NCBI GenBank assembly: GCA_022826485.1
Contig: JAJDUU010000018.1
Span: 1 to 64,000, forward strand
Reading direction: 5' to 3'
Source of the DNA: Chloroflexota bacterium
Lineage (GTDB): Bacteria; Chloroflexota; UBA11872
DNA length: 64,000 nt
Shown here: positions 6,769 to 12,456 of the stretch, piece after piece
How positions within the stretch are numbered: the first letter of the stretch is position 1
How the letters are laid out: the number at the start of each line of letters is the position of its first letter
Translations under genes and position numbers: made by a program
The notes under the pieces: generated by a model
The model's input: the letters and a program-made list of their open reading frames with translations, nothing else
Databases searched by the model: none
What the model was told of the DNA's origin: nothing

Positions 6769-7668
6769 TCAGACGCTGACGAGCACCAACCCCGCTGCCG
6801 CCAGACCCGCTCCCGCCAGCGTCCCGCGGCTGTGGCGCTCGTGCCAGAGCAGGTAGCCCGCGGCGATGGTGAGCAGCGCGGAGCCGGCGCTCTGGGCGGG
6901 AAACACGATCGTGCCGGGCACGTCGCGCAGCGCCAGCAGAATCAGGACCAACTGGCCCATGTTGACGACGCCGGTCACGACTCCGAGGGCCAGCGGCTCG
7001 CGGAAGAAGCGGCGGCCAAAGCCGAATGACGCGGGCTCGTCGACGGCAACGCGGGGCGCCGGTTGGATGCGTCGCCGCATGACGTAGGTCGCCAGCGCGA
7101 TGGCGGTGGCCGCGGCGAAGGTCGCGGTGGCGTACAGCGGCAGATTCTCGATGGGGGCGACCTCGACGAAGGCCTTGGCGGCGATGAGGCCGGCGCCCGT
7201 GACCGAGAGCGTGCCGATGACCACCGGCCAGTACCACCACACGCGCAGCCGGGCATCCTCGCTGCGGCCGCTGCGCGTGAGCAGTGGCAGCGCGCCGAGC
7301 AGCAGCGCGATGCCGATCAGCGTGGGCGGGTCGGGCCGTTCGCCGAACCACACGATCGAGGCCACGGTGGGCACGATGACGGACATGCGCAACAGCACGA
7401 AGGTGATGCCGACGCCCGTGCGCACGAGCAGCAGATAGATGGCCACGACGGCCAGCGAGAAGCGCGCGCCCTGCACGATCCCCAGCAGCACGGTCGGGGC
7501 GTCCACGGTCGCGGTTCCGGCGACGACCAACCACACGACGCCGATGACCAATCCGGTGGCGTAGTTCGTCCCCGTCATGAGGAAGAAGTCGTAGCCGCGG
7601 GTCTGCGCCCGGCGCAGGGCGAGCGCAAAGCCCACCACGAATAGAATGTGCGCGACGAGATAGCCCAT
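6769..7668 (-). CDS. EamA/DMT-superfamily permease
   Basis: This 299-aa polytopic membrane protein has about ten hydrophobic segments in two repeated halves, the architecture of drug/metabolite transporter (EamA) carriers. The second half ends with FPAQSAGSALLTIAAGYLLW and HERHSRGTLAGAGLAAAGLV, the usual EamA closing pattern. The ATG at 7668 starts directly at the first membrane segment. It is divergent from the gene at 7736, leaving a 67-bp shared promoter region. Substrate unknown; the neighbouring sugar-acid dehydratase suggests a possible metabolite link but no more. Confidence 0.8.
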   Translation of the reverse strand: MGYLVAHILFVVGFALALRRAQTRGYDFFLMTGTNYATGLVIGVVWLVVAGTATVDAPTVLLGIVQGARFSLAVVAIYLLLVRTGVGITFVLLRMSVIVPTVASIVWFGERPDPPTLIGIALLLGALPLLTRSGRSEDARLRVWWYWPVVIGTLSVTGAGLIAAKAFVEVAPIENLPLYATATFAAATAIALATYVMRRRIQPAPRVAVDEPASFGFGRRFFREPLALGVVTGVVNMGQLVLILLALRDVPGTIVFPAQSAGSALLTIAAGYLLWHERHSRGTLAGAGLAAAGLVLVSV

Positions 7669-7735
7669 GGCGTTCGCGGCATGGTCGGCTGCGGCACCGT
7701 GGGTGGCAAACCCCACGCGAGACGGACGGAGCGAC

Positions 7736-8692
7736 ATGGCGAGGTATTTGACCGAAGCTGACGTGGACCGCCTGGCCAACATGGACCTGGCGCTGCGCGT
7801 CGTCGAAGGGTCCTTCGAGCGGCAGGGTCGCGGGACCTCCGCCAATGTCGGGCGCCGTCGGGCGCGGACCGCGCGCGGCGCGCTGCAGCTCATGGGGGCG
7901 GCCGATCCCGATCTGGGCGTCCTGGGCGCCAAGCTCTATCCGAGCGTTCCGGGCGGGGGCATCAGCTTCGTGGTGGTGCTGTTCGACGCGGCCAGCGGCG
8001 CCCTGAGCGCCGTCATGGAGGCGGGGCGCCTGAGCGGGCTTCGCACCGGCGCCGCGAGCGGAGTGTCGGTGAAATACCTGGCGCCGCCGGAAGTCCAAGC
8101 CATCGGGATCATCGGCACCGGCCGGCAGGCGCGGACGCAGCTCGAGGCGGTATGCGCGGTGCAGCCGTTGGCTCGGGTGCGCGTGTTCTCACGCAACCCG
8201 GCGAACGTTCAGAAGCTCATCGAGGAAGTGTCGCCCAAGCTGGCTGCCGACCTGGAGCCGGCGGCCACGGCCGAGGCAGCGGTGCGGGGCGCGCAGGTCG
8301 TCATCACGGCCACCAACGCCGCCGATCCCGTCGTCGAAGTCGATTGGATCGAGCCCGGCGCCCACGTCGTGGCGATGGGCACCAACCACCCGCAGCATCG
8401 AGAGTTGGACAGCGCCGCGATTGCCCGCGCCGACCGCGTTTTCGTGGACGACCTGGAAGGCGCGAAGATCGAATGCGGCGACCTGATCTGCGCCGTCGAG
8501 GACGGGGCCTTCCAGTGGGGCGAGGCGGTCGAGTTCGGCCAGGTGGTGGCCGGTCGCGCGCCCGGTCGAACCAGCCCGGACGAGATCACGCTGTTCGAGT
8601 CGCAGGGCATTGCGCTGTGGGACATCGCGCTCGGCCAGGTCGTGCTCGAACGCGCCCAGGCCGCGGACGTCGGAACTCTCATCGGGGACTAG
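7736..8692 (+). CDS. Ornithine cyclodeaminase/mu-crystallin family protein
   Basis: The protein is 318 aa. It has the N-terminal substrate half (MARYLTEADVDRL, then the RTGAASGVSVKYLA block around residue 105) and a Rossmann domain with IGIIGTGRQARTQL (about 124-137), then FSRNP and DAVFVDD-like DRVFVDDLEGAK. This layout is shared by ornithine cyclodeaminases, alanine dehydrogenases of the Archaeoglobus type and ketimine reductases. A GGAG precedes the ATG at 7736. It ends 19 nt before dop and may be co-transcribed with the pupylation genes. Substrate not determinable. Confidence 0.85.
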   Translation: MARYLTEADVDRLANMDLALRVVEGSFERQGRGTSANVGRRRARTARGALQLMGAADPDLGVLGAKLYPSVPGGGISFVVVLFDAASGALSAVMEAGRLSGLRTGAASGVSVKYLAPPEVQAIGIIGTGRQARTQLEAVCAVQPLARVRVFSRNPANVQKLIEEVSPKLAADLEPAATAEAAVRGAQVVITATNAADPVVEVDWIEPGAHVVAMGTNHPQHRELDSAAIARADRVFVDDLEGAKIECGDLICAVEDGAFQWGEAVEFGQVVAGRAPGRTSPDEITLFESQGIALWDIALGQVVLERAQAADVGTLIGD

Positions 8693-8711: not shown

Positions 8712-10196
8712 ATGAACCGGCCGGTTGGGATCGAGACGGAGTACGGACTCAACTGCGAGGGCTTTGCGGGACCGCCGGACTTCGCATTCGAGTCGGCGAT
8801 GCTGATTCACGCGGCGCCGCTGCCGGTGGCGTTTCGCGGCTGGGACTACACCGACGAGGACCCGCGGCGCGATCTGCGCGGCACTCGGGTCGACGCCCTG
8901 AAGCACGATCCGAACGACCACCTGGGATCCACGGCCCAGAGCTCGCGCATGACGCGCGAAGAGCTGCTGGCCGACACCGTGCTGCTGAACGGCGCCCGGC
9001 TCTACAACGATCACAACCACCCCGAGTACTGCACCGACGCCTGCCGCACCGTGCTCGACTTGGTGGCGCAGGACCGCGCGGGCGAGGCGCTGATGCACGA
9101 GGCCGAGAAGGCCCACAACGAGCGGCTGGACGGGGGCCGCGTACGGCTGGTTAAGAACAACACGGACTACCACGGCCGCAGCTACGGCTGCCACGAGAAC
9201 TATCTGACGCTGCGCGAGGTGCCGCTCGACCACCTGGTTGAGGCGCTGGTGCCCTTTTTGGCGACGCGACAGGTGTTTGCCGGCGCGGGTCGCGTGGGCA
9301 TCGAGGGCGGCGATGCGGGCGCGTTGCAGCTTTCCCAGCGCGCCGACTTCTTCGAAACGGTGGTGGGCATCAACACCACGACCCGGCGGCCCATCTTCAA
9401 CACGCGCGACGAACCGCACGCCGATCGCACCCGCTACCGGCGGCTGCACGTCATTGCCGGCGACGCCAATCGCAGCGAGTGGGCCACGGGCATGAAAGCG
9501 GCCACGACGGCGCTGGTGCTCGACGCAGTCGAGGCCGGCTGGCGGGCGCCCATCCGGCTGCGCGATCCCGTGGCGGCGGTCCAGCAGGTCTCCCACGACC
9601 TCACGCTGGGCGCGGGCATCGAGCTCGACGACGGTCTCAATGTTTCGCCGCTCGACATCCAACGGTGGTGGCTGAGTGCCTGCGAGCGCTTCCGCGGCCG
9701 CGACGCCGAGACGGACTGGGTGCTCGACGAGTGGGATCAGGTGCTGACCGAATTGCGCGCCGATCCAGCGGCCGTAGCGGATCGGGTGGACTGGGCAGCC
9801 AAGCTGGTGCTCCTGCGGGATCTCGGCCCGGCGCCGGAGGCGGCGCGACGCCTCGACTTCGCGTATCACCTGCTGGACCCAAGCCTCAGCGTGCATCAAT
9901 GGCTAACCGATCGCGGGCGCATGCGCACGCTGGTGACGCCGGCACAGGTTGAGGAAGCCCGCACCACGCCGCCGTCAGGCACCAGGGCCACCGTGCGCGG
10001 CCGGCTGCTGGCCAAGTTCGGTCCGGCGATCACGGCCATGGAGTGGGACCGGGTGCACTTGCACCGCAATGGCGTTAACGTCACGGTGCGGCTGCCCGAG
10101 GTTGCGGGACCCGAGATCGACCGGCTCAGCGCCCTGGTTGAGAAATGCGCCACCATTGATGATGTAGTAGCCGCGCTTGACGCCGAAGGAGGATGA
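8712..10196 (+). CDS. dop: Dop, Pup deamidase/depupylase
   Basis: This 494-aa protein is of the glutamine-synthetase-like Pup ligase/deamidase family. The ATP site opens with GIETEYG (residues 6-12). A Dop-specific loop follows: RGWDYTDEDPRRDLRG (about 42-57) and further polar residues to about 82. This loop is absent from the second family member at 10386, which is what separates Dop from PafA. The catalytic segment LLNGARLYNDHNHPEY (91-106) carries the nucleophilic Asp region, followed by KNNTDYHGRSYGCHENY and NTRDEPHAD. Dop deamidates Pup-Gln and removes Pup from targets. AAGGAGGA at its end serves as the ribosome-binding site of pup, 3 nt downstream. GGAG precedes its own start. Confidence 0.93.
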   Translation: MNRPVGIETEYGLNCEGFAGPPDFAFESAMLIHAAPLPVAFRGWDYTDEDPRRDLRGTRVDALKHDPNDHLGSTAQSSRMTREELLADTVLLNGARLYNDHNHPEYCTDACRTVLDLVAQDRAGEALMHEAEKAHNERLDGGRVRLVKNNTDYHGRSYGCHENYLTLREVPLDHLVEALVPFLATRQVFAGAGRVGIEGGDAGALQLSQRADFFETVVGINTTTRRPIFNTRDEPHADRTRYRRLHVIAGDANRSEWATGMKAATTALVLDAVEAGWRAPIRLRDPVAAVQQVSHDLTLGAGIELDDGLNVSPLDIQRWWLSACERFRGRDAETDWVLDEWDQVLTELRADPAAVADRVDWAAKLVLLRDLGPAPEAARRLDFAYHLLDPSLSVHQWLTDRGRMRTLVTPAQVEEARTTPPSGTRATVRGRLLAKFGPAITAMEWDRVHLHRNGVNVTVRLPEVAGPEIDRLSALVEKCATIDDVVAALDAEGG

Positions 10197-10199
10197 GCA

Positions 10200-10373
10200 A
10201 TGAACATCACGTGGCGGTCGGTGCCGCTGGACGAGGTCGAGGCGCCGCCCGATCCGGCCAAGACGGTTCCCGACGAAGAGACCACGCCGGCGGAGGACGA
10301 CGACTTGGGCGAGCACGTCAGGCGCATCATTCGTGAAATTCCGGATCCGACGCCGCAGCCCGGCGGGGAGTAG
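10200..10373 (+). CDS. pup: Pup, prokaryotic ubiquitin-like protein ending in Gly-Gly-Glu
   Basis: This 57-codon gene lies between dop and pafA. It starts at ATG 10200, six bases after a strong AAGGAGGA. The peptide is acidic and proline-rich, with no aromatic core after Trp5. It contains AEDDDLGEHVRRIIREIPD (residues 31-49), a plausible ATPase- or enzyme-binding helix, and ends TPQPGGE. Pups are about 60-70 aa, intrinsically disordered and end GGQ or GGE; the C-terminal Glu side chain is joined to target lysines by PafA. Here Glu is encoded directly, so deamidation is not needed for ligation. Outside the helix and the C-terminus it resembles actinobacterial Pup little. Position and C-terminus make the call secure. 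Confidence 0.9.
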   Translation: MNITWRSVPLDEVEAPPDPAKTVPDEETTPAEDDDLGEHVRRIIREIPDPTPQPGGE

Positions 10374-10385
10374 TCCTCCCGCTCG

Positions 10386-11879
10386 ATGAAGGACGCGCTG
10401 TTCGGCACCGAGATCGAGTACGCCAGCGCCGGCGAGTTTCCGCCCTCGCGGGCCGCGACGATGGTCAAGAACGTGATCTTCGCGGAGCGCCGCTTCGGGA
10501 TCATCGACCCGGCGCCCCGGGAATGGGACGAGGCGCCGGGCAACGGCGGGTTCCTGTTCAACGGGGCCCGCCTCTACCTGGACTCGGGCCACATCGAGTA
10601 CGCGACGGCCGAGTGCCGCACGCTGGACGACATCGTGGAGCAGGAGAACGCGGCGGACGCCGTCCTGCTGGACGCCGTGGAGAGCCAGGAGCTGAATCGC
10701 CGCCTGTTCTTCATCAAGAACAACACCGACTACCTGGGAAACACCTTCGGCTACCACGAGAACTACGCCGTGCGGCGCAGCCCCCTGAGCCTGGACATGG
10801 CCGCCGGGCTGATGCCGTTCCTGACCACGCGCCAGCTCTACGCCGGCGCCGGCATGACCATCACCGACCGGGACAACGGCGGACTGCCGTTTCACATCTC
10901 GCAGCGGGCGGCGTTCGTGACCATCGACATGAGCCAGCGCGTGCGCTTCGGCGGCCGGCCCATCGTCAACTTGCGCGACGAGCCGCTGACCGAGGAGGCC
11001 GGGCTGCGGCGGCTGCACGTGATCGTGGGCGACGCCAATCGAAGTGAGTTCGCCACGGCGCTCAAGATCGGCTCGACCGCGCTGGTCGCCCAGCTGCTTG
11101 AGGGTGGCTGGAATCCCGATCTCGTGCTGCTGGCGCCGGTGCAAACGCTCAAGGAGATTTCAAGCAATCCCGCCGGTCCGTGGTCGGTCGAGTTGGCGGA
11201 TGGCCGCAACATGCCGGCGCTCGACGTCCAGCGGATGTATCACGCTGCCGCCGACCGCGCCTTCCGCGGGCGCGACAGCGACACTGATTGGACCCTGGAC
11301 GCCTGGGCCGAGTGTCTGGACGGCCTCGAGCGCGATCCGACGACGCTGGTGGGCAAGGTCGATTGGATCACCAAGCTCGAGCAGCTGCGCCGCTTCGCCG
11401 AGGACTCACCGGATGGCTGGGCGGACCCCGAGCTCGTGAAGGTGGATCTGGCCTACCACCACATCGACCCCACGGTGAGCATCTTTGCCGAGCTGCAGCG
11501 GCGGGGCGTCGCCCCGCGCCGCACGCGGGGCGACGTGAATCCGCTGGCCGTGCCCTCGGGAACGCGGGCGCGCGCCCGCGGCCGCATCGTGCGGGCGCTC
11601 GTGGAGGCGCAGGCCGACTCGCTCATCGATTGGAAGGACGTGCACCGCAACCTTGGCGCGCTGACGAACTGGAACGACCAGCTATTCCTCGTCTACCAGT
11701 ACATCGAGGACTGGCACGAGCTCGACGCCTACGGGGGCTGGGACGTCATCCCCTACCTGATCGACTGGACCGGCATCGGGGTTCGCGGGAAGCTCTGTGA
11801 GCTGCCCAATCCCTTCGAAAGCTACACCGCCGCCGCGGAGGAGTTCGCCGACAAGCTGGGCGGATACCTGCGCCCTTAG
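10386..11879 (+). CDS. pafA: PafA, Pup-protein ligase
   Basis: This 497-aa ligase couples the Pup C-terminal Glu to lysines of target proteins using ATP. It starts MKDALFGTEIEYAS and lacks the Dop loop. The active-site region is LFNGARLYLDSGHIEYATAE (57-76), with the expected NGARLY.D and EYATAEC. Further family blocks are KNNTDYLGNTFGYHENYA, PFLTTRQLYAGAG, NLRDEPL, RRLHVIVGDANRSEFAT and the C-terminal DLAYHHIDPTVSIF. It starts 12 nt after pup, so dop-pup-pafA is a tight operon. No proteasome alpha or beta gene and no Mpa/ARC ATPase gene is adjacent. The gene ends convergently, overlapping the MarR gene by 4 nt. Confidence 0.93.
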   Translation: MKDALFGTEIEYASAGEFPPSRAATMVKNVIFAERRFGIIDPAPREWDEAPGNGGFLFNGARLYLDSGHIEYATAECRTLDDIVEQENAADAVLLDAVESQELNRRLFFIKNNTDYLGNTFGYHENYAVRRSPLSLDMAAGLMPFLTTRQLYAGAGMTITDRDNGGLPFHISQRAAFVTIDMSQRVRFGGRPIVNLRDEPLTEEAGLRRLHVIVGDANRSEFATALKIGSTALVAQLLEGGWNPDLVLLAPVQTLKEISSNPAGPWSVELADGRNMPALDVQRMYHAAADRAFRGRDSDTDWTLDAWAECLDGLERDPTTLVGKVDWITKLEQLRRFAEDSPDGWADPELVKVDLAYHHIDPTVSIFAELQRRGVAPRRTRGDVNPLAVPSGTRARARGRIVRALVEAQADSLIDWKDVHRNLGALTNWNDQLFLVYQYIEDWHELDAYGGWDVIPYLIDWTGIGVRGKLCELPNPFESYTAAAEEFADKLGGYLRP

Positions 11880-12334
11880 GCTGCGGTTGCGCCGTTCAGC
11901 ACGGCGGCCAGATCTTCCATGGCGCCCGCAAGATCGGCCAGCTGGCGCTTGCCGTAGCGACGGGTGAGGGACGCTTCCGCGGCCTCGAGCTCCGCGCGCA
12001 CGCCCTGCCATCTGGATCGGCCGCGGCTGGTGAGCGCCAGCTGAAACGAGCGCCGGTCGTTGGGATCGATGTCCGCGGTGATCTGGTCACTGTTGACGAG
12101 CCGCTTCACCAGCTCGGAGGTGGCCGCCGGGCTGCGACCAAGCTCGCGTGAGAGCTCCGTGGGTGTGACCGGGCCCTCGGCCTCGGCCAGAAACTGCAGT
12201 GCACGCGCCAGCGGCAGCGACACGCCCGCCCGCTCGCAAGCCGAGTTGAGGTACTCGGAAACCTGGTGGGACCCAATCAACACCCGATGGATGACGAGAT
12301 CCGTTTGTCCGTTGCTCTGGCTTCGCGTGCTCAT
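11876..12334 (-). CDS. MarR-family transcriptional regulator
   Basis: This is a 152-aa winged-helix regulator. The DNA-binding part reads ALQFLAEAEGPVTPTELSRE, LGRSPAATSELVKRL, then NSDQITADIDPNDRRSFQLA, the recognition helix and wing with the DxRS/R signature of MarR proteins. ATG 12334 is preferred over upstream codons because AAAGGAG lies about 12 bases before it and the homologous region begins soon after. Its 3' end overlaps the pafA stop convergently by 4 nt. A promoter is visible at 12428-12456. The ligand and targets are unknown; dop-pup-pafA is a possible but unproven target. Confidence 0.85.
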   Translation of the reverse strand: MSTRSQSNGQTDLVIHRVLIGSHQVSEYLNSACERAGVSLPLARALQFLAEAEGPVTPTELSRELGRSPAATSELVKRLVNSDQITADIDPNDRRSFQLALTSRGRSRWQGVRAELEAAEASLTRRYGKRQLADLAGAMEDLAAVLNGATAA

Positions 12335-12427
12335 ATCCGAAGGTCTCTCCTTTGGTGGTTTCGGCGCGCAGCAATCGCCGGTCGCGCTCATGGATTGTGC
12401 AGACGGCCAACCGGCCGTGGCTGTTTT

Positions 12428-12456
12428 GTTATACGGCATCTGACAATTTCACACAA
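12428..12456 (-). promoter_or_regulatory. Sigma70-type promoter of the MarR gene
   Basis: On the minus strand TTGTGT (12456-12451) and TATAAC (12433-12428) are separated by exactly 17 bp, giving a good housekeeping promoter about 95 bases upstream of the MarR start. Confidence 0.55.

Follow-up and report, generated by a model that had tools for sequence, protein, structure and literature searches.

A Pup tag is normally read by the proteasome together with an unfolding motor (Mpa/ARC), and nearly all that is understood of pupylation concerns delivery to the proteasome or, where the 20S particle is lacking, to ARC. Pupylation without 20S but with ARC occurs in Corynebacterium and others, and for the Corynebacterium-type system a non-degradative role has been demonstrated with ferritin (PMC3511204, PMC8223512, PMC12288473). 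For Plesiocystis and Rhodopirellula, Pup and a ligase were predicted, unlinked to proteasome genes, and a regulatory role was proposed (PMC2588565). A survey of the phyla that carry Dop/PafA does not name Chloroflexi (PMC7947786). In the open-access papers searched we found no report of pupylation in Chloroflexota, nor of a full dop-pup-pafA set in the absence of both 20S and ARC.

The locus considered here lies in a window of 64,000 nt, the whole stretch of DNA that was analysed. The host is a member of the Chloroflexota, as a preliminary description of the DNA had supposed, and its assembly of 3.17 Mb is 96.4% complete. It belongs to the GTDB class holding the MAG UBA2235, hereafter the class, of which 41 genomes were searched. 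Sponges are one of the habitats from which the host lineage has been reported (PMC10608941, PMC8163846).

Organization of the locus

The three genes occupy exactly the positions given in the preliminary description (Table 1) and the gaps between them, 3 nt from dop to pup and 12 nt from pup to pafA, were also given correctly. Across the class loci there is no conserved neighbour gene besides dop, pup and pafA. A MarR-family regulator (window 11876-12439, minus strand) is convergent with pafA, the two genes sharing 4 nt at the end of pafA; other genera do not keep it at this position. An ornithine cyclodeaminase/mu-crystallin family gene on the same strand as dop (window 7667-8692, plus strand) stops 19 nt upstream of it and is possibly a genus-level operon partner, and is not kept beside dop in other genera. 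A 516-aa ORF upstream of dop, conserved in family f4, was discarded, since on visual inspection it lies antisense to a divergent mandelate racemase/enolase-like gene.

Table 1. Features of the dop-pup-pafA locus, in window coordinates
Feature	Position	Strand	Basis or remark
dop, depupylase/deamidase, 494 aa	8712..10196	+	PF03136, NCBIfam, PDB, AF2
Dop-loop segment	8859..8966	+	alignment: in Dop, not in PafA
Dop catalytic Asp100, LYNDHNHPEY	9009..9011	+	class-invariant
pup Shine-Dalgarno AAGGAGG, perfect	10186..10192	+	within dop 3' end, 7 nt upstream of ATG
pup, 57-aa modifier, end PQPGGE	10200..10373	+	38/38 class genomes with assembled gap
Pup predicted helix LGEHVRRIIRE	10305..10337	+	in register with Armatimonadota (UBact-type) Pup helix
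Pup class-defining C-terminus RIIREIPDPTPQPGGE	10323..10370	+	final residue E or Q only
pafA, Pup ligase, 497 aa	10386..11879	+	PF03136, PDB, AF2
PafA catalytic Asp66, RLYLDSGH	10581..10583	+	class-invariant

The enzymes Dop and PafA

Both enzymes match PF03136 over the family cut-off (1.9e-142 for Dop and 3.2e-104 for PafA) and keep the catalytic Asp and Glu. The best solved relatives are themselves a Dop (PDB code 5lrt, 2.9e-102) and a PafA (PDB code 4b0t, 4.8e-63). Against the NCBIfam equivalogs TIGR03686 and TIGR03688 the scores fall below the curated cut-off, 404 as opposed to 492 bits for Dop and 279 as opposed to 551 bits for PafA, and the two are homologues outside the NCBIfam curated set. 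The top matches of the AF2 model of Dop are Dop structures, with TM values of 0.84-0.90 on target, and the top match of the PafA model is the PafA-Pup complex 4bjr. Foldseek searches with these models also return glutamate-cysteine ligases.

Asp100 of Dop and Asp66 of PafA, to which established knowledge of the two families assigns a catalytic role, are invariant through the class, as is an N-terminal pair of glutamates (E8 and E10 in Dop, E9 and E11 in PafA). The Dop-specific loop noted at the outset is present in Dop and not in PafA when the sequences are aligned.

In phylogenetic trees the Dops cluster and the PafAs are separate, the split having moderate support (81/71 and 85/80). Within the class Dop and PafA are each monophyletic, which indicates that the reduced dop-pup-pafA set is old and has been retained, and both trees group by genus and family. 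Genome G029 has a third PF03136 protein (464 aa; L066:7656-9047, minus strand; G029:C77), whose branch in the tree is very long; no small ORF ending [G/S/A]G[E/Q] was found at that locus.

The small modifier

The preliminary description identified the 57-codon ORF as Pup. It is a real, co-conserved gene, but by sequence it is not canonical Pup and is better described as a divergent modifier specific to the class. Searches of Pfam, NCBIfam and the PDB give no match to the 57-aa ORF, the canonical Pup model PF05639 has no match at the locus in any class genome, and hhalign comparison with actinobacterial Pup gives a probability of 0.6%. The search of related genomes suggested in that description finds dop-pup-pafA, with a small ORF between dop and pafA, in 38/38 class genomes in which that gap is assembled. 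We consider the ORF a genuine gene because it is conserved in all 38 with a near-invariant C-terminus and varying synonymous codons. The apparent lack of pup in G008 was traced to an assembly gap (N) between dop and pafA.

The tail shared within the class is R-I-[I/V]-R-E-[I/V/M]-P-[D/G]-P-T-P-Q-P-G-G-[E/Q], so that a small protein ending GG[E/Q] stands beside pafA/dop in 38/38 genomes. Of the 38 tails, 24 end in E and 14 in Q, and no other final residue occurs; Q-ending Pup is distributed over four genera (g2, g6, g8 and g11). Alternation of E and Q at the end of Pup is a known hallmark (PMC3511204). The motif pattern was drawn up only once the gap had been searched more loosely in 36 of the 38 genomes and, since the looser search came first, the count of 38/38 is not a product of the pattern. 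The motif occurs once per genome in the 38 class genomes and is absent from G006 and G019, both of which are without dop/pafA. Among 84,980 species scanned it adjoins dop/pafA in this class only. Chance identity of the pup ORF was rejected in view of the codon pattern and because the six out-of-class matches in that scan have no adjacent Dop/PafA; one chance match is in a Fimbriimonadaceae genome (Armatimonadota) with PF03136 elsewhere.

The 30 residues upstream of the Pup helix are approximately 19% proline and are disordered in the AF2 model. Proline makes up 17% of the last 24 residues in the class, as opposed to 4% and 0% in the two groups compared with it. In actinobacterial Pup a segment forms a coiled coil with Mpa (PMC3511204); this segment is not recognisable in class Pup. 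Inputs for AF2 modelling were the natural in-frame read-throughs, dop TGA-GCA-ATG pup, and pup TAG plus 12 nt pafA. In the dop-pup read-through the pLDDT is approximately 50-57 over the helix and 28 over the GGE tail, which is not confidently docked; in the pup-pafA read-through it is approximately 30 over all of Pup.

Absence of 20S and Mpa/ARC

The absence of proteasome genes beside dop-pup-pafA, remarked on in the preliminary description, extends to the whole host assembly, where HMM searches for prcA, prcB and Mpa/ARC detect none: there is no PF00227 protein and no Mpa/ARC gene anywhere. The accompanying suggestion of proteasome genes at another place in the genome is refuted, for the host by this search of the whole assembly and for the class by a search of 41 genomes, with the Armatimonadota as a sensitivity control. 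The host was also searched for a further pup locus accompanied by prcBA and mpa, and none was found: PF05639 is absent and the pup motif is single-copy.

The PF00227 model covers 20S and HslV, and by searches with it a 20S pair is present in 0/41 class genomes; the Mpa/ARC model cut-off is reached in 0/41. Incomplete assembly was rejected as an explanation, as the result is the same in the 24 genomes with completeness of 90% or more and contamination of 5% or less, and also in G018, a single contig of 3.0 Mb that carries dop-pup-pafA and neither the 20S pair nor Mpa/ARC. The absence of 20S and Mpa/ARC is real and class-wide.

PF00227 gives three sporadic weak matches in the class (G011, G013 and G026), none adjoining dop/pafA. 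They were rejected as 20S: that of G011 is a stand-alone 247-aa Ntn-like protein, that of G013 a near-equal match and that of G026 short and partial, and neither G011 nor G013 has a second PF00227 match. The stand-alone proteasome-like Ntn hydrolase is encoded by a 247-aa frame at L032:1489-2229 (plus strand; G011:C7) and also on G013:C10; weak PF00227 matches similar in size to this protein occur in some Armatimonadota as well. Strong AAA matches were likewise rejected as ARC, the host's two best belonging to the FtsH family and that of G029 to the CDC48 family. The latter, a CDC48-family tandem AAA ATPase at L034 (G029:C396), has 719 aa and scores 934 bits, over cut-off; further tandem-AAA ORFs are present in G020 and G021. 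A second, degenerate FtsH-like protein (L118:982-3261, plus strand; G000:C17) is under the FtsH cut-off, and partial FtsH-like matches resembling it are found across the class, including genomes without dop/pafA.

Distribution and nearest relatives

PF03136 is present as Dop and PafA in 39/41 class genomes and in 0/359 other Chloroflexota genomes sampled. Outside the phylum, 46 of the 81 Armatimonadota genomes carry PF03136. All 46 of these pafA/dop genomes have PF00227, in 41 cases on a contig that carries dop or pafA; some of the remaining PF00227 matches will be HslV. An ARC match below 1e-60 is found in 44 of the 46, with 42 at approximately 400 bits or more over near-full model length and none at the curated cut-off. 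In view of these matches, the same HMMs detect 20S and ARC outside Actinobacteria. In one Armatimonadota genome (G424) a single contig has the order arc-dop-pup-prcB-prcA-pafA.

The phylogeny that the preliminary description had called for places class PafA as sister to Armatimonadota PafA (97/98) and class Dop as sister to Armatimonadota Dop (89/88), the comparison groups being only Actinobacteria and Armatimonadota, so that other groups may hold closer relatives. The Pup helices of the class and of the Armatimonadota, whose Pup we take to be the 'UBact' protein, resemble each other most at shift 0 (p 3e-4 when columns are shuffled, with the comparison window picked after inspection). An hhalign comparison of the two Pups leaves the register unchanged with a probability of 1.9%. 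The simplest history, judged from sequence, would be that an ancestral Armatimonadota (UBact)-type locus lost arc and prcBA, had its Pup tail recoded and has been kept since. A phage or plasmid origin was rejected; there are no related viral contigs, and the only records that resembled PafA were two from actinobacteria and an unverified contig from the gut.

Some Armatimonadota have a second compact locus with arc-like, dop and pafA genes and no prcBA between dop and pafA, at L138 (G409:C18:1-6500), L139 (G407:C39) and L140 (G455:C507). The L138 and L139 loci have a small ORF between dop and pafA with a C-terminus like that of actinobacterial Pup (hhalign 87.6%) and not like UBact. PF00227 has no match at the L139 (G407) and L140 (G455) loci.

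Proposed function and alternatives

The genomic data establish that both enzymes are present with their active sites conserved, that the modifier is co-conserved with them, and that 20S and ARC are lacking. It is very probable that the class possesses a complete pupylation-type modification independent of the proteasome and Mpa/ARC. To judge from the enzyme families PafA would join the Glu of Pup to lysine, while Dop would deamidate the GGQ forms of Pup and would also take Pup off again, making the modification reversible. Dop is kept where Pup already ends GGE and so removal, not deamidation alone, seems to be under selection. In this reading, proteins of the class would carry Pup tags.

How might the tag be read? 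The preliminary description offered regulation and another protease, and as far as sequence goes either may apply. That the modification is both independent of proteasome and ARC and coupled to a non-degradative fate of the tagged proteins we put at an even chance. The mark, mainly non-degradative, may then serve in control of activity, assembly or interaction, which we favour over hand-over to a housekeeping AAA+ protease. Our tentative proposal in full, held at somewhat less than even confidence, is that Pup-like conjugation serves the class as a protein signal in its own right, reversible and non-degradative, with no proteasome or dedicated unfoldase, following loss of arc/prcBA and recoding of the tag.

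A real though rather doubtful possibility is that Pup is still a degradation tag, with a general AAA+ protease (ClpP with ClpX/ClpC, FtsH or Lon) starting on disordered, proline-rich Pup. The disordered stretch with about 19% proline before the helix might plausibly act as an initiation region, and possible readers exist, ClpP being encoded in 38/41 class genomes and FtsH in that of the host. However, no conserved neighbour ties dop-pup-pafA to any protease, and G019 has ClpP as well despite being without dop/pafA, so that there is no co-occurrence signal. It is unlikely that the tag is read by a divergent unfoldase or proteasome-like peptidase beyond the reach of the models used. PF05639 misses class Pup, so a partner could have diverged likewise, and a few genomes do have a stand-alone PF00227 protein or a tandem-AAA, Cdc48-like ATPase; but each of these is confined to approximately 3/41 genomes, the host's best AAA matches are FtsH family members, and the same models that draw a blank here do succeed with the Armatimonadota relatives, giving ARC matches of 400 bits or more in 42 genomes and PF00227 matches in 46/46. 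Very improbable is a redirected PafA/Dop pair, for example ligating the peptide to a small molecule, with Pup not put on proteins at all. The wider superfamily makes glutathione-like peptides, in keeping with the Foldseek matches, and the tail has been recoded in comparison with known Pups. Yet the ligase still has a depupylase with its Dop loop next to it, conservation of the Pup-like GG[E/Q] ending is strict, and the neighbourhood of dop-pup-pafA contains no conserved biosynthetic gene.

A class-wide, long-kept unit without either reader would imply that Pup attachment and removal are useful by themselves or via another reader. The role of pupylation without degradation becomes directly testable with three short genes, and the range of pupylation is extended to the Chloroflexota. 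The system also offers a modifier in which the docking end appears to have been rewritten while the enzymes stay recognisable.

Comparison with known systems

The Corynebacterium-type system resembles that of the class in having dop, pup and pafA without prcBA and pup immediately 5' of pafA. It keeps a working ARC, whereas ARC is found in 0/41 class genomes, and beyond GG[E/Q] there is no recognisable sequence kinship between the two Pups. With the mycobacterial Pup-proteasome system the class shares the Dop and PafA families, the GG[E/Q] tag and the order dop-pup-...-pafA; the differences are that it is without 20S and without Mpa, and that canonical Pup is undetected. Plesiocystis and Rhodopirellula similarly have Pup and a ligase, with proteasome genes absent from the locus. 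Their ligases carry a four-TM insertion and a linked membrane protein gene (PMC2588565), in contrast to the full Dop and PafA pair of the class, which has no insertion. The Armatimonadota UBact-type system has the same gene order as the class once arc and prcBA are removed. In its genomes 20S is always present and ARC nearly always, while the class is without both, and the Pup tails, YRQRSG[E/Q] in Armatimonadota and REIPDPTPQPGG[E/Q] in the class, are wholly different.
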